Shown here: positions 54,704 to 61,784 of the stretch, piece by piece
Position numbering within the stretch: the first letter of the stretch is position 1
Layout: every line of letters begins with the position of its first letter
Assembly (NCBI GenBank): GCA_016183805.1
Contig: JACPDX010000013.1
Location: forward strand, 62,001 to 126,000
Direction: 5' to 3'
Length of the DNA stretch: 64,000 nucleotides
DNA from: Bacteroidota bacterium
Lineage (GTDB): Bacteria > Bacteroidota > Bacteroidia > Flavobacteriales_E > Vicingaceae
Notes under the pieces: generated by a model
What the model saw: only the letters and a program-made list of their open reading frames with translations
What the model was told of the DNA's origin: nothing
The model's database searches: none
Position numbers and translations under genes: made by a program

Positions 54704-54731
54704 TTAACACAACCTTAACATAATCGTAAAG
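54704..54731 (+). promoter_or_regulatory. Pho-box-like direct repeats (11-bp period)
   Basis: TTAACAcaaccTTAACAtaatcGTAAAG upstream of 54792. Confidence 0.5.
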
Positions 54732-54791
54732 TTTAATTTCCATTTGCTAGCCGGAGTAGTTGTTACTTTGCAATGTAAAAAATTAAAGAAA

Positions 54792-55106
54792 ATGAAACAA
54801 CTTATTTTAATATTAGCACTGGCACTTACAACGGGGTTAGTTGCAAATAATAACGAAGGAAAAGCAAAATTAGCTGTAGTTAAAGGAAAAGTATTAGATA
54901 ACCAAGAATCGCTAACCGGCGTTAAAGTAATGGTTGATAATGTTCCTACTACAGTTTATACCGATTTTGACGGAAACTTTTTCATAAACAACCTAACTAT
55001 TGGTAAACATACCTTAAGTTTTAGTTTGGTTGCTTACGAAAGTAAAGTTATCGAAATTGATGTAACCGCATCTCAAAACATTGAAGTTAAACTAGATTCA
55101 AAATAA
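54792..55106 (+). CDS. Carboxypeptidase-regulatory-like domain protein (small, secreted)
   Basis: Signal MKQLILILALALTTGLVA; VKGKVLDNQESLTGVKVMVDNVPTTVYTDFDGNFFINNLTIGKHTLSFS; start corrected inward. Confidence 0.85.
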   Translation: MKQLILILALALTTGLVANNNEGKAKLAVVKGKVLDNQESLTGVKVMVDNVPTTVYTDFDGNFFINNLTIGKHTLSFSLVAYESKVIEIDVTASQNIEVKLDSK

Positions 55107-55133
55107 TTTTCGAAAAATCAAAATCAATGAAGA

Positions 55134-55157
55134 CCTCGCTTTAGCGGGGTTTTTTTA
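55134..55157 (+). terminator. Rho-independent terminator
   Basis: CCTCGCtttaGCGGGGttttttt. Confidence 0.85.
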
Positions 55158-55209
55158 TAACATATTTTTATCTTTATCGTAACCAAAAAATAATAATAAA
55201 TTCAACAAC

Positions 55210-55674
55210 ATGAAAAGGTTTTTTTTATTTGCATCATTCATTATTCCTTCACTATTATTTTCACAAAACATAACCAACAAAGAAGGTGTTTTTGTAAATA
55301 ATACTGGTGAAAAATATTCCGGAAACTTAGTTTCTTATTTCGAAAACGGAAATAAAGAATACGTTTATGAAATAAAAAATGGAATTCAAAATGGAACAGC
55401 AGAGTTTTATTATTCTTCAGGAAAGATAATGGAAAAAGGTGTTTTTAAGAATGGATTAAAACATGGCAATTGGCAAAAATGGTCGGAACAAGGACAAAAA
55501 CTGGCAGAAGCCAACTATTCGAATGGCGAAAAAGATGGTTTGTGGTTAATTTTTGACGAAAATGGTACAAAACGTTACGAAATGCATTATAGTAATGGAA
55601 AGCGAACCGGAGTTTGGAAAAGTTGGGACGAAAAAGGTATTGAAACCGAATCAAAAGACTATACTTCTGGGTAG
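55210..55674 (+). CDS. MORN/YwqK-like repeat protein
   Basis: Repeats GEKDGLWLIFDENGTKRYEMHYSNGKRTGVWKSWDEKG. Confidence 0.85.
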   Translation: MKRFFLFASFIIPSLLFSQNITNKEGVFVNNTGEKYSGNLVSYFENGNKEYVYEIKNGIQNGTAEFYYSSGKIMEKGVFKNGLKHGNWQKWSEQGQKLAEANYSNGEKDGLWLIFDENGTKRYEMHYSNGKRTGVWKSWDEKGIETESKDYTSG

Positions 55675-55825
55675 TGGTTGCATGACAATTTGGTCTCTGA
55701 TAAAGAAAATTTCATTTTTGAGGCTTGAGAAGCTAAAAAATTGGAAGTTTAATTTAGTAAATAACTCATTTTGAGGCAAGCATAACGATAAAAATGAGGT
55801 TTTCTTGTAGAGACTAAGTAACTTT

Positions 55826-55853
55826 TTAATACAACCTTAACCTTTAGTTAACC
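55826..55853 (+). promoter_or_regulatory. Pho-box-like triple direct repeat
   Basis: TTAATAcaaccTTAACCtttagTTAACC, exact 11-bp period. Confidence 0.55.
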
Positions 55854-55903
55854 GATGCTAGGCGTTTGCAAAAGTAACTTTCTGCTTTAATTAGTAGAAA
55901 AAA

Positions 55904-56584
55904 ATGCAGTCAAAAATAGTTGTTGTTTCAAGATTTCAGAGCGATTTAGGTGATTTAAAAAAATTTCTTTTAAAAGAAGGTTTTGAGGTTATTCCCATTA
56001 TCGAAATTAACTCGACAAATATAGAGTTAATAAACAATCTTGCTCCCCAAATCGTTTTTTTAGAAATGGATATGGGAAATTTTGATGGTATTGAAATTTG
56101 TCATCAATTAAAAATTGAAAAAAAAATTAATGGTTTTGTTGTCATCAGCTCTACACTGCCCGAAGAATATATTCAAATAGAGGCTTATAAGGCCGGTGCT
56201 GATGATTATATTGTTAAACCCATTAGTAATCGGTTATTGTTGAGGAAACTTAAAGCATTAATTAAGCGTACACCAAAAGCACAAATGAGTGCTAAAAATA
56301 ATCGGATATCATTTAAAGATATTGTTATTGACCGAGAAAGTTATAGCATTTTACGGGGAGTTGAAAAGATTGAGTTACCCAAAAAAGAATTCGAATTACT
56401 CTATTTATTGTTTAACAATCCTCAAAAAACTTTCACCCGTAGCGAAATTTACAAATCGGTGTGGGACAATGTAGATAACTACAACCCAAGAATTATTGAT
56501 GTGCATATTCGAAAAATTCGAGAAAAAATAGGAAATGCATTAATCAGCACAGTAAAAGGTGTCGGCTACCAATTGGCTGTGTAA
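55904..56584 (+). CDS. OmpR/PhoB-type response regulator with atypical receiver
   Basis: C-terminal winged helix PKKEFELLYLLFNNPQKTFTRSEIYKSVW...VKGVGYQLAV; receiver FLEMDMGNFDG (Glu at phospho-acceptor), N-terminal VVSRFQSD in place of the acidic pair. Confidence 0.9.
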   Translation: MQSKIVVVSRFQSDLGDLKKFLLKEGFEVIPIIEINSTNIELINNLAPQIVFLEMDMGNFDGIEICHQLKIEKKINGFVVISSTLPEEYIQIEAYKAGADDYIVKPISNRLLLRKLKALIKRTPKAQMSAKNNRISFKDIVIDRESYSILRGVEKIELPKKEFELLYLLFNNPQKTFTRSEIYKSVWDNVDNYNPRIIDVHIRKIREKIGNALISTVKGVGYQLAV

Positions 56585-56624
56585 AGCTGTATAAATAAAC
56601 TTAAACTATGGGCAAAAATCAAGT

Positions 56625-59477
56625 TTATTTAAGGGTATATGAATAACTAAATCCAAAAAATCTTCCTTCGGTGTAAGAAGAAAATATCTCGTCGTTACCC
56701 TGAAAAGAACTGTAAATTCGTTGGCGTTTTTGGTTTAAGACGTTATTTACACTAAAGCTGATTTTGTGTCTTTTTTCTGCTCCTATTCCTTTTGTAATTC
56801 GCAAACCTAAATCATGAAAAGCTTTGTCGTAAACATCAGGAATTCTACCTAAACCAACTATAGCTAAACTCTTTCCTTGCACGTTGTAATTTAAACTTAC
56901 ATCCCAACCGTTATCAACATGAGTATAGTTAAAGTAAGAATTAACTAAAAAAGGAGCTTGTCCTTGAAAAGCCCTGGTTTTGCTAATGGTTTGTCCAGAA
57001 CGAGCTTCAGCAACACGGGCTTTGTATTCAATTTCACTCATTTCAACTTCCGATTTTACAAAAGTTACGTTACCTCCAACAGAATAGTTTTTTAGTTTTT
57101 CTGAGATAAAATCAAGGCTTTTACGCACCTCAAATTCTACTCCTAAAACCGAAGCATTATCAATGTTTCTAGGAATAATGTTGTCGGCACTGGTTGCGTT
57201 ATACGACACTACCTCTATTGGGTTAATAAATGTTTTGTAAAATCCACTAATAGAAACCAAATCGGCAGACTGAAAAAACTTTTCAAAACGTAAATCGTAG
57301 TTGTTTACATAAGTTTGAACCAAGTCTAAGTTTCCAAGAAAAGTAATTTGTGTTACCGCATCGTAAATTTGTGCTCCCGATTTTTCTTTAAACGAAGGTC
57401 TTGCCAAGGTTCTGCTAAAGTTAGCTCTTGCATTAAAATCTTTAAACAAATTATAAATCATACCTAACGATGGCAACACATCCAGTTCATCCAACACCAC
57501 CCTATCGTCAAACTTATCTAATTTTGGGTCGATAATGGTTTGTCTTTCTCCTGTATATCGCATCTCTGATTTTTCAACTCTTGCACCATAAATTATTTTA
57601 AACGAACTGTCAATGGGCAATTCGTTCATCAAGTATCCTGCAATAACTGTTTGAGTTGAGGTATAAATGTTTGAAGAATCTATTTGTCCGATTGGGTAAA
57701 TACCAGTGAAAGTTTTTGGCGAATTTGCTGCACTAAACAAATATTCGTTAGTAAAAGGTTGGTTCGGGTCGCCCGAATAATCCATTTTTCCAATATTTCT
57801 AAAATTAAATTCAACCACATCAAAATTTCTGTTTTTATACGTGTAGGCTATACCTGTTTTTAAGGTGCTTTTTAAACCCGACCACTGGTTAAAATCCCAT
57901 TTTAAATCGGCTTTAGCATTTAAGTTTACTTCCTCTAAGTTTCTAAAAGCTCTATTGATTAAAGCCCCTTCACCATTTGCAAATGTATATTTTCCATCAG
58001 GAGTAATGTTAAAAATTGTTTGGCGTAAATCGGGTTCTTTGTTTAAAGCTAATGATGGAGAAATGGCTGTTTTTAATTCTAGTTTTTTATTAAACTGATG
58101 TTTTGCAGCTAACAACACGTTAGAAATACTTCGTTGATTGTAATAAAGAGTTGTTTTATCTAATGTTACTAGGTTATCCGAGAAATCGGTATTTTTTTGC
58201 AACACTTTCGATGCTGTTTTTATACCATTTTGGGTGTGGAAAAAGGTTAATGAATATTTACTTTTGGCTCTTTTTACAGAAAAACTAGCCAACCCATTCC
58301 ACAATACTTCTTGTCTTCCAATCTCTCCTGTGTTAGTTTCAAGAGCTTCTAAATTATATTTTGTAATCGTATCACTGTTTTGGAAAGTATTAAATTCCCA
58401 ATCTCTATAGTGTGTGTATTTCATGCTGTAACCCAAAGAAACCACATAACCATAAGTGGTTTTCTCTCGTTCATGTTGGTTACCATAACTCAAACTGTAA
58501 TTTTGATTCAATAAACTACTTCCTCTTATGGAAGCCATTTCGGTATCGAACGATTTGGTAACACGTTCTAAAATAACATCATTTTGAGTAGTAATTAACG
58601 GACGAGGAATAACTGTTTTAGGATTTATGGGATTGTATCTATCTCCTGCACCGTTTGCCCATAAATCAGCTGCTGAACCACTAAAGGTTAAGAAATCGTT
58701 TTTAAAATGCATGTCAGGATTGTAAGTAAAAGAAGATGAAAAACTTAAAATTCTGCTTTCAGGAAAATCTTTGGTAACAATATCTACCATACCACCGGTG
58801 AAATCGCCCGGAAGGTCAGGGGTAAATGTTTTATAAACCACAATGTTGTCCACCACGTTGGTCGGGAAAATATCCACCTGAACAGAGTTTCTGTCGGGGT
58901 CTAATCCGGGGATGGTAATACCGTTTAAAATGGTTTTGGTATAGCGGTCGCCCAATCCTCTAACATAAACATCCTTTCCTCCTTGAATAGAAACTCCGGT
59001 TACTCTTTTTAAAGCTCCAGCAGCAGAGTTGTCGCCTGTTCTTGCAAAAGTTTGTGCAGAAATACCATCAACCAAATTCACCGATTTTTGTTTAATTGTT
59101 GATATGGCAGCTTCATTGTTTTTAATTTGTGTAGCTGTTAATTCAAACGTTTCTCCGGTAATGGCTTGGTCTTTCATTCTGATGTTAGTTACAGTAACAC
59201 CATCGGCTTTTACAGTAACACCGGAAATTTTTTGTGTAGCAAACGATACATAAGATGAAATCAAGTTATAAGTTCCAGGTTCTGTTGTAATAGAAAAATT
59301 TCCATCAAAATCAGTAATGCTTCCATTTGTTGTACCTTCAATAATAACACTACAACCAATCAATGGCTGACCAGTCGCGTTTTCAATAATTGTTCCTCTT
59401 ATCTTTCCTTTTTGAGCACTTAAACTAATTGAAATACTTAATAAAAGCAAGATGCTTGTTATACTTTTGAAATCCAT
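56625..59477 (-). CDS. TonB-dependent receptor with N-terminal carboxypeptidase-like domain
   Basis: GKIRGTIIENATGQPLIGCSVIIEGTTNGSITDFDGNFSI; DVYVRGLGDRYTKTILNGITIPGLDPDRNSVQVDIFPTNVVDNIVVYKTFTPDLPGDFTGGMVDI; C-terminal beta-barrel. Confidence 0.94.
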   Translation of the reverse strand: MDFKSITSILLLLSISISLSAQKGKIRGTIIENATGQPLIGCSVIIEGTTNGSITDFDGNFSITTEPGTYNLISSYVSFATQKISGVTVKADGVTVTNIRMKDQAITGETFELTATQIKNNEAAISTIKQKSVNLVDGISAQTFARTGDNSAAGALKRVTGVSIQGGKDVYVRGLGDRYTKTILNGITIPGLDPDRNSVQVDIFPTNVVDNIVVYKTFTPDLPGDFTGGMVDIVTKDFPESRILSFSSSFTYNPDMHFKNDFLTFSGSAADLWANGAGDRYNPINPKTVIPRPLITTQNDVILERVTKSFDTEMASIRGSSLLNQNYSLSYGNQHEREKTTYGYVVSLGYSMKYTHYRDWEFNTFQNSDTITKYNLEALETNTGEIGRQEVLWNGLASFSVKRAKSKYSLTFFHTQNGIKTASKVLQKNTDFSDNLVTLDKTTLYYNQRSISNVLLAAKHQFNKKLELKTAISPSLALNKEPDLRQTIFNITPDGKYTFANGEGALINRAFRNLEEVNLNAKADLKWDFNQWSGLKSTLKTGIAYTYKNRNFDVVEFNFRNIGKMDYSGDPNQPFTNEYLFSAANSPKTFTGIYPIGQIDSSNIYTSTQTVIAGYLMNELPIDSSFKIIYGARVEKSEMRYTGERQTIIDPKLDKFDDRVVLDELDVLPSLGMIYNLFKDFNARANFSRTLARPSFKEKSGAQIYDAVTQITFLGNLDLVQTYVNNYDLRFEKFFQSADLVSISGFYKTFINPIEVVSYNATSADNIIPRNIDNASVLGVEFEVRKSLDFISEKLKNYSVGGNVTFVKSEVEMSEIEYKARVAEARSGQTISKTRAFQGQAPFLVNSYFNYTHVDNGWDVSLNYNVQGKSLAIVGLGRIPDVYDKAFHDLGLRITKGIGAEKRHKISFSVNNVLNQKRQRIYSSFQGNDEIFSSYTEGRFFGFSYSYTLK

Positions 59478-59548
59478 GTTGTTTTTTTAAATAAAGATTG
59501 CCGCAAGTTTTATGTTGCGGCAATTTTACGATATTAAGATAGCTGTAA

Positions 59549-59576
59549 TATTAGATTAACATTAACTAATTGTTAA
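59549..59576 (-). promoter_or_regulatory. Pho-box-like triple direct repeat upstream of the TonB receptor
   Basis: Minus strand TTAACAattagTTAATGttaatCTAATA, 11-bp period. Confidence 0.45.
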
Positions 59577-59579
59577 TAG

Positions 59580-60863
59580 TTATTGGATGTTAACAGCTAT
59601 CGGGCTAAATTGACCGGTTCTTCCGGCAAAAGTCCAACCTACAAATTGTGTTGGATCAAAACCATTTGTTAAACCAGAACCAATGTTATTGTTATTTACA
59701 AAATTACTTTCATCATATCCAGCTTGATCTGATTTAAATACTCCTGCAAGAGCACTGGTATTTAATGCGTTGTTGTTAAAAGTAAGTGTGGAAGAACCTG
59801 TTCCTATATAATTATTGTATGCATCAGCACCATTTACAACGAATCTTGCTGCAGCATTAAAATTGGTAAAATAACAGTTTTGTAAGTTTCCTTGAGCTTT
59901 AGATTTAAATACTGCATAATCACAAGTTAAGTTCGCAGCATTACCAACAATATATCCTTTAGTAAAAGTAAATTGACCTATTGCATTCAAAGAGCCTTCC
60001 GGACCATCAATTTCAAAAGCATCACCTTCTTGGTTTTCACCAGCAATAACCACAAAGTTGCTAATAGTTCCTTTAAAAGCTTGGTCAACATCATAACTAT
60101 CATCATCAATTTTAACAACAATTAAATCAGATGCGTTTACAGAACCACCAAAAAACTCAATACCGTCATCAAGATTACCAACAATCTCAATATGATTGAT
60201 TGTTGTTCCGCTACCTACACCACCTAAAGTTAATCCGTTAAGTTCATTACCCGCACCAATAATAACCCCGCCATGTCTAATAGAAACATATTGTAATTCT
60301 CCTGAATTATCTGCATCATCAGAACCACCATAAGTTGTTCCGATTGTTCCTGCCGGAATACCTTCAATTTCTGCTGTTCCGCCAGTTGGAGTTGAACAAG
60401 AAGCATCTCCTAAGATAACTACACCACCCCATAAACCCTTGTGATTAACGGTTAAGTTTGGACTAGCAATTTGGCCAGGAACAATTTGATCGTCAGAAGA
60501 AGTAAAGATAATTGGAGTACTTGCTGTTCCGATTGCATGAATTTTTGCACCAACACCAATAACTAATACTGCTGCATTTGCATCAGAACCCGGCTTCCCT
60601 TTTATTACTGTTCCTGCTTCAATAGTTAATTCTGCTGGGGCAGTAACAATAACTCTACCATCTAAATAAACAATTTTATCTTTTGTCCAAGTGGTGTTAG
60701 AAGTAATATTTCCACTAACCGTAAGTGATGGAAAAGAGGTATCAGGAGTTGGTACCGGAGTTTCAACAATTGGATCGGTTGATTTATCTTTAGAACAAGA
60801 TGTGAAGAATGTGGTTGCACCTAACATAATAATGGATGCAATTAATAGTTGTTTTGTTTTCAT
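59580..60863 (-). CDS. Beta-helix-like lipoprotein
   Basis: Lipobox FFTSCSKD; VSGNITSNTTWTKDKIVYLDGRVIVTAPAELTIEAGTVIKG; ELNGLTLGGVGSGTTINHIEIVGNLDDGIEFFGGSVNASDLIV. Confidence 0.82.
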   Translation of the reverse strand: MKTKQLLIASIIMLGATTFFTSCSKDKSTDPIVETPVPTPDTSFPSLTVSGNITSNTTWTKDKIVYLDGRVIVTAPAELTIEAGTVIKGKPGSDANAAVLVIGVGAKIHAIGTASTPIIFTSSDDQIVPGQIASPNLTVNHKGLWGGVVILGDASCSTPTGGTAEIEGIPAGTIGTTYGGSDDADNSGELQYVSIRHGGVIIGAGNELNGLTLGGVGSGTTINHIEIVGNLDDGIEFFGGSVNASDLIVVKIDDDSYDVDQAFKGTISNFVVIAGENQEGDAFEIDGPEGSLNAIGQFTFTKGYIVGNAANLTCDYAVFKSKAQGNLQNCYFTNFNAAARFVVNGADAYNNYIGTGSSTLTFNNNALNTSALAGVFKSDQAGYDESNFVNNNNIGSGLTNGFDPTQFVGWTFAGRTGQFSPIAVNIQ

Positions 60864-60951
60864 TTTAGTTTTTTTAGTTTTGATTTAAAATTTATTCGAA
60901 GCAAAATAACACCCGGCAAATTATCTGAACGTGTCCCCAACTTTATTGTTA

Positions 60952-60979
60952 GCTTATTATCGTGTTAAGGCTATGTTAT
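60952..60979 (-). promoter_or_regulatory. Pho-box-like direct repeats upstream of the beta-helix lipoprotein
   Basis: Minus strand ATAACAtagccTTAACAcgataATAAGC, 11-bp period. Confidence 0.4.
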
Positions 60980-61034
60980 TTATCATAATGAGTTATGCTA
61001 ATAAAAAACTGATTAGAAGACTCACTACCAAGTG

Positions 61035-61062
61035 ATAATTACAATTTAATATTAAGTTAACA
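61035..61062 (+). promoter_or_regulatory. Pho-box-like direct repeats upstream of the response regulator gene
   Basis: ATAATTacaatTTAATAttaagTTAACA, 11-bp period. Confidence 0.45.
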
Positions 61063-61118: not shown

Positions 61119-61784
61119 ATGGAAAAGATTTTATTGGTTGATGACGAAAATGATATTTTAGAATTTGTTAGTTATAATTTATCTAAAGAAGGGTTTCAGG
61201 TAATCACCTGTAATAATGGAAAAGAAGCCATACAACTCGCCCAAAAAGAAAACCCCGATTTAATTATCCTTGATGTGATGATGCCTGAAATGGATGGTAT
61301 TGAAACTTGTCATGAATTAAGGAGTATTGATAAATTAAAAGACACCTTAATTATTTTCTTAAGTGCAAGAGGTGAAGATTATTCGCAGGTGGCAGGATTT
61401 GATGCCGGTGCTGACGATTACATTCCAAAACCCATCAAACCACGTTTATTGGTAAGCCGCGTAAAAGCCATTTTAAGAAGAAAAGGTGGAAAAGTAGAAG
61501 CCGAAGAAACCCATTCCGGAATAAGAATTGATAGAGAAAAATACCTGATTTTTAAAGACAATAAGGAATTTTCACTACCAAAAAAAGAATTTGAATTGTT
61601 GGCATTACTTTTTTCTAAACCCGGTAAAGTTTTTACTCGCGAAATTATTTTGGACAATGTGTGGGGAGGCGATGTGGTAGTTGGCGACAGGACTATTGAT
61701 GTACACATTAGAAAATTACGTGAAAAATTAGGCGACCAATACATAAAAACAATTAAAGGTGTAGGATACAAGTTTGAGGTTTGA
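61119..61784 (+). CDS. PhoB/OmpR-type response regulator (canonical receiver)
   Basis: KILLVDDENDIL; LIILDVMMPEMDGIETC; winged helix VGDRTIDVHIRKLREKLGDQYIKTIKGVGYKFEV. Confidence 0.94.
   Translation: MEKILLVDDENDILEFVSYNLSKEGFQVITCNNGKEAIQLAQKENPDLIILDVMMPEMDGIETCHELRSIDKLKDTLIIFLSARGEDYSQVAGFDAGADDYIPKPIKPRLLVSRVKAILRRKGGKVEAEETHSGIRIDREKYLIFKDNKEFSLPKKEFELLALLFSKPGKVFTREIILDNVWGGDVVVGDRTIDVHIRKLREKLGDQYIKTIKGVGYKFEV

Follow-up and report, generated by a model that had tools for sequence, protein, structure and literature searches.

What are five short tracts of tandem TTAACA-like repeats doing upstream of neighbouring transcription units in a Vicingaceae genome, and which regulator, if any, reads them? 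The window considered here is a stretch of 64,000 nucleotides (positions 62001-126000 of contig C15) from a 3.47-Mb genome in 109 contigs. A sequence-only reading had claimed five repeats of 11-bp period in this region. A check of the sequence places all five at the coordinates and on the strands listed below, with a period of exactly 11 bp, and by matrix, background and spacing they stand above chance. The features concerned are as follows.

54704-54731, plus strand: predicted Pho box 1 (TTAACA-TTAACA-GTAAAG), upstream of CPreg; 21.1 bits with a relatives-only matrix, and boxes also precede the relatives' orthologues.
54792-55106, plus strand: CPreg, a small secreted protein with a carboxypeptidase-regulatory-like domain (Pfam PF13715, 2e-15; synteny; start codon read from the sequence).
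55210-55674, plus strand: MORN-repeat secreted protein, a conserved cluster member (PF07661; synteny).
55826-55853, plus strand: predicted Pho box 2 (TTAATA-TTAACC-TTAACC), upstream of RR1; 24.2 bits, and boxes also precede RR1 orthologues.
55904-56584, plus strand: RR1, a PhoB-like response regulator with a degenerate receiver (acidic pair SR, phosphoacceptor Glu54).
56625-59477, minus strand: TonB-dependent receptor, TBDR (Pfam plug PF07715; homologues in 45 of 60 relatives).
59498-59523, minus strand: a conserved hairpin of the TBDR leader, TTGCCGCAA...TTGCGGCAA, with a T-rich stretch after it.
59549-59576, minus strand: predicted Pho box 3 (TTAACA-TTAATG-CTAATA), upstream of TBDR and directly past the LP stop codon; 20.3 bits.
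59580-60863, minus strand: LP, a secreted lipoprotein, probable right-handed beta-helix (mostly-beta AlphaFold model; synteny).
60952-60979, minus strand: predicted Pho box 4 (ATAACA-TTAACA-ATAAGC), upstream of LP; 19.2 bits.
61035-61062, plus strand: predicted Pho box 5, weak (ATAATT-TTAATA-TTAACA), upstream of phoB; 14.0 bits.
61119-61784, plus strand: RR2, the predicted PhoB orthologue, with a canonical receiver (D8, D9, D52, S82 and K104).

TTAA words are frequent in AT-rich intergenic DNA, and the most sceptical explanation of the repeats is that aligned words were simply picked out. One test bearing on this counts TTAA-to-TTAA distances only and assumes no further motif: across 47 homologous promoters, spacings peak at 11 bp (59, against about 7 for each other spacing) and at 22 bp (28), while eight promoters of the genome itself give 13 at 11 bp against 1.1. 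A 28-bp matrix, built from 54 sites that precede homologues of these genes in other genomes, with own-genome sites excluded, was then scanned across 184 kb of the genome. Its training sites were picked by likeness to TTAACA and the orthologous promoters share ancestry with those tested, though the receptor proteins differ by 25-65%. The six best matches precede the porin (25.5 bits) and the Na/Pi cotransporter, NaPi (25.0), or lie at 55826 (24.2), 54704 (21.1), 59576 (20.3) and 60979 (19.2), and 7 matches exceed 18 bits where 0.4 are expected in simulated DNA.

Stretches of the same genome and genome-wide pattern counts provided the background. A comparison of matrix hits with background, of the kind that the sequence-only reading had called for, falls in favour of the boxes: 480 kb of other own-genome sequence holds no match above 16 bits (the best is 14.8), against 11 such matches within 22 kb of Pho loci. 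Its caution that TTAA words are common was well placed, as exact two-unit TTAACA pairs fail to discriminate: there are 7 genome-wide at the 11-bp-period spacing, no commoner than other spacings, and their location alone stands out, with five of the seven in the Pho region. A degenerate three-unit pattern, written after the sites were seen and so illustrating location rather than testing it, matches 16 times in the 3.47-Mb genome against 9 for a reversed control, and eight of the 16 fall within 46 kb of contig C15 (1.3% of the genome), four being window sites and four belonging to the pst/NaPi block. Three further matches, on contigs C78, C86 and C83, have neighbours with no phosphate link and were judged to be chance.

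An origin by chance draws on the lack of enrichment among exact pairs and on box 5, whose 14.0 bits with the relatives-only matrix are at background level when the site is taken on its own; it is contradicted by the spacing test, the matrix, the background scan and the class-wide footprint described below. For boxes 1 to 4 (54704, 55826, 59576 and 60979) chance is refuted, and its overall probability is negligible. The site at 61035 is retained as a box because it is conserved before orthologous phoB genes and is spaced to a -7-like element, TAACTTCG. Specifically, TTAATATTAAATTAACA is conserved before phoB in G031, G034, G015, G006 and L134, and TTAATATTAA(A/G)TTAACA is kept before orthologous phoB genes. 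Box 3, in a comparison of promoters, has near-identical counterparts in G002, G034 and G031.

The boxes of PhoB-type activators are made of direct repeat units of 11 nt, to which the proteins bind head to tail (PMC4415409), and TAnnTTTG is the -7 element of Bacteroidota, recognized by sigma-A in Flavobacterium (PMC9723704). At RR1 promoters, the distance from the start of unit 3 to TAnnTTT is 26 bp in ten relatives and 27 bp here (TAACTTT at 55875), which puts the box over the -33 region, where activators of this type would be expected to bind. Box-like sequence is present 60-85 bp ahead of the start of all RR1 genes examined. By reading, the geometry at 61035 is that of RR1, with unit 3 at 61057 and TAACTTCG 27 bp further. 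For CPreg, TACTTTG lies 38 bp past unit 3, which is one repeat further, and promoters other than those of RR1 show a less uniform distance from box to -7 element, or no clear -7 match.

The genes that carry these boxes point to phosphate. A second locus on contig C15 (L006) encodes a phosphate-selective porin (PF07396), PstS, PstC, PstA, PstB, PhoU and a Na/Pi cotransporter with PhoU domains, and boxes lie upstream of porin, pstS and cotransporter, that of pstS being the weakest. In G002 and G015, the genes for porin, NaPi, CPreg, MORN protein, RR1, TBDR, LP, RR2 and kinase form a single cluster, and the Vicingaceae record L134 has the identical gene order as far as RR2; therefore, the window holds a Pho cluster whose porin/NaPi part lies separately on the same contig. 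Within the window, the MORN gene has no strong box of its own. The earlier assignment of the repeats to PhoB-class Pho operators is accordingly supported by the same boxes before porin, pstS and cotransporter genes, and by the clustering of these genes with phoB-phoR in relatives. The proposed regulon would not be confined to the locus, since it would reach the pst block as well.

A further strong box of three units at the cotransporter gene extends into its ATG (TTAACATG; L006:10063-10090, minus strand). This box could act in repression rather than activation.

Conservation of the predicted Pho boxes extends to many families within Bacteroidia. LP homologues occur in 211 of 295 class genomes, and a matrix match is present in the 280 bp upstream of LP at 28 of the 30 best loci from these 211 genomes (p <= 0.05 against shuffles). 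Among the same 30 best loci, those outside the host's family have boxes in 21 of 23 cases and in 8 of 9 families, and LP is divergent from phoB-phoR at several of them. The footprint is not universal: the LP and phoB promoters of Schleiferia thermophila have no box, and boxes are mostly missing from porin paralogues with identities under about 40%.

Taken together, repeats in tandem with an 11-bp period upstream of phosphate-acquisition genes (pst, porin, phoB) make it highly probable that all five are Pho boxes, the predicted operators of PhoB (RR2) in a phosphate-starvation response. RR2 combines a canonical receiver (DD, D, T/S, K) with a winged-helix domain recognized by Pfam, and all RR2 proteins compared are canonical. 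Its best NCBIfam model is PhoB TIGR02154, at 221.8 bits against a curated cut-off of 296.2, and it scores 209.7 against a cut-off of 270 for NF053854; the name PhoB is given here from best model, synteny and sites, for a protein that scores under the curated thresholds. The kinase has near-best scores against PhoR models, likewise under curated cut-offs. It adjoins RR2 in relatives and here lies two genes off, at C15:126994, past ribonuclease R (rnr) and KdsB (kdsB), and RR2 accordingly has a PhoR-type kinase and phosphate genes as partners.

Those sub-threshold PhoB scores are one argument for a different view, that the boxes are real OmpR/PhoB-class operators of another regulator or signal, ArcA-like or envelope-stress, with phosphate genes only part of the targets. 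R. anatipestifer 'PhoP' offers a second, as its motif resembles that of E. coli ArcA, its targets are largely non-phosphate and pstS is up in the mutant (PMC9603813, PMC5399024). We consider this unlikely: strong sites in the genome studied here gather at phosphate genes, as the location of half the pattern matches illustrates, the 480-kb background is devoid of strong matches, and in relatives phoB-phoR sits inside the box-bearing cluster. It is very improbable, moreover, that RR1 rather than RR2 is the main regulator of the five promoters. Its gene does lie inside the cluster, has the strongest box of the window and encodes a recognition helix common to PhoB, but in genomes and families whose locus yielded no RR1 gene, boxes still precede LP, CPreg and phoB, and the RR1 clade was found solely in the host's family and in a few MAGs of the Flavobacteriales. 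Because boxes also occur at loci where an RR1 gene was not found, the binder common to all of them is likely to be PhoB (RR2).

In the PhoB model that we favor, a Pho box would consist of three or more 11-bp direct repeats with the consensus TTAACA-N5-TTAACA-N5-(T)TAAC, occupied by tandem PhoB (RR2) at low phosphate. Occupancy would turn on a scavenging set comprising TBDR, the beta-helix lipoprotein, the small secreted protein, phoB and RR1, and the regulon would also take in the porin-pst and Na/Pi-cotransporter units of the same contig. RR1, expressed from a Pho-box promoter, would itself be PhoB-induced. It probably reads the same box via its near-identical recognition helix, with no need of phosphorylation, and in this way would add a second tier, under PhoB induction, to reinforce or tune the response.

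Both regulators had been placed in the regulon by the sequence-only reading, and boxes indeed flank both genes; the two are not equivalent, RR2 being a canonical PhoB and RR1 a regulator with a degenerate receiver. The phosphorylation pocket of RR1 is not intact, so it was not filed as PhoB. Its 21 orthologues form one clade (support 100/99), sister (97/92) to five proteins, termed RRx, that flank the Na/Pi cotransporter, and in the Vicingaceae locus L133 its place and identity are the same as in G062:C21. The acidic pair is replaced in 21 of 21 RR1 proteins, the phosphoacceptor is Glu in four, including the one studied here, and Asp in the other 17, and the Lys is lost in some. The recognition helix, IDVHIRK(I/L)RE, is almost identical to that of PhoB, and the charged residues D100, D101, K/R115 and R122 of the alpha4-beta5-alpha5 face are retained. 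Receiver dN/dS is 0 to 0.27 across the pairs for which it is computable; the RR1 receiver is therefore maintained under purifying selection, not decaying. An AlphaFold model shows a receiver fold (mean pLDDT 81) with OmpR/PhoB regulators as top structural matches.

RR1 accordingly has the OmpR/PhoB fold minus the residues for phosphotransfer, as do the pseudo-receiver regulators ChxR, HP1043 and GlnR, among which the commonest change is a non-acidic second DD residue (PMC12632262, PMC3960148, PMC8345958). It differs from these in lying within a Pho cluster, under a Pho box and beside a canonical PhoB paralogue. On balance, we lean towards RR1 as a second tier of the Pho response that works independently of phosphorylation, a reading that allows either reinforcing or damping, although some RR1 proteins that keep the Asp may still be weakly phosphorylated. 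A possibility to which we give rather less credence is that RR1 damps PhoB action at the boxes, as its competitor or heterodimer partner, instead of reinforcing it as an activator. The retained alpha4-beta5-alpha5 residues are in keeping with such a partner, and atypical response regulators can work as heterodimers, as described for BldM-WhiI (PMC4125116).

Other degenerate regulators are found at related loci. RRx proteins (L094-L098) are PhoB-like, with Asp changed to Pro at the phosphoacceptor, and are encoded beside the Na/Pi cotransporter in genera with no RR1 at the locus; box-like sites are present inconsistently in their promoters. Between Na/Pi cotransporter and TBDR, G040 (of another family) encodes a receiver-like protein of 139 aa that has a degenerate pocket and no DNA-binding domain within its ORF (L047:6679), and G007 has, between LP and porin, a further PhoB-like regulator devoid of the acidic pair (ALK; L044:10661).

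Two further elements of the cluster merit comment. The AlphaFold model of LP is mostly beta with a moderate mean pLDDT of 70, and a fold search returned weak beta-helix and pectin-lyase-fold matches, none below E 0.001, making a right-handed beta-helix probable. LP is likely related to lipoprotein FII of F. johnsoniae, judging from synteny and fold class rather than alignment. The TBDR leader hairpin, between box 3 and the TBDR start, is present in four genomes (this one, G002, G031 and G034); in G034 one of its pairs is changed on both sides. It could be the terminator of LP or an attenuator.

The PhoP boxes of B. subtilis are tandem direct repeats with an 11-bp period. Cyanobacterial SphR boxes share this arrangement, and their consensus, CTTAACCT in three or more 8-bp repeats separated by 3-bp linkers, very closely resembles the one described here (PMC1906773). 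Both belong to another phylum and regulator lineage, and to promoters with a different -7 element. Within Bacteroidota, the F. johnsoniae PUSIV/phoBR operon (Fjoh_0541-0549) similarly has phoB-phoR beside a TonB transporter, the beta-helix-type lipoprotein FII and an OprP porin; the transporter Fjoh_0545, FII (Fjoh_0546) and PhoB (Fjoh_0544) rise on phosphate depletion, strongly so for the first two (PMC8115612). It differs in that the phrase 'Pho box' is absent from that report, the available part of which shows no RR1-like gene. The OmpR-family 'PhoP' of R. anatipestifer, also flavobacterial, has a core TTTAACA by DAP-seq and EMSA, its own promoter included, and binds in vitro even when unphosphorylated; that motif was likened to ArcA, not called a Pho box, and few of its 583 peaks are at phosphate genes (PMC9603813). 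The resemblance suggests that this 'ArcA-like' motif is the same kind of operator. PhoB of B. fragilis PhoRB is a further Bacteroidota example, bound to the pst promoter by EMSA, for which the available part of the report defines no binding sequence (PMC3547664).

Our literature search found no described Pho box for Bacteroidota. The boxes outlined here provide a sequence-defined candidate for Bacteroidia, where phosphate-depletion regulons have been measured and no operator was found in the literature searched, and with it Pho regulons would become predictable across Bacteroidota genomes. For Vicingaceae and their kin, one may tentatively envisage two tiers, in which canonical PhoB and degenerate paralogues (RR1, RRx) act on the same boxes, the latter independently of phosphorylation, with protein level or the PhoU domain of the cotransporter supplying the signal. 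The control of pseudo-receivers was called a mystery by a 2025 review (PMC12632262); a canonical PhoB and a pseudo-receiver paralogue, predicted to act on the same type of box, would offer a natural pair in which to study it.
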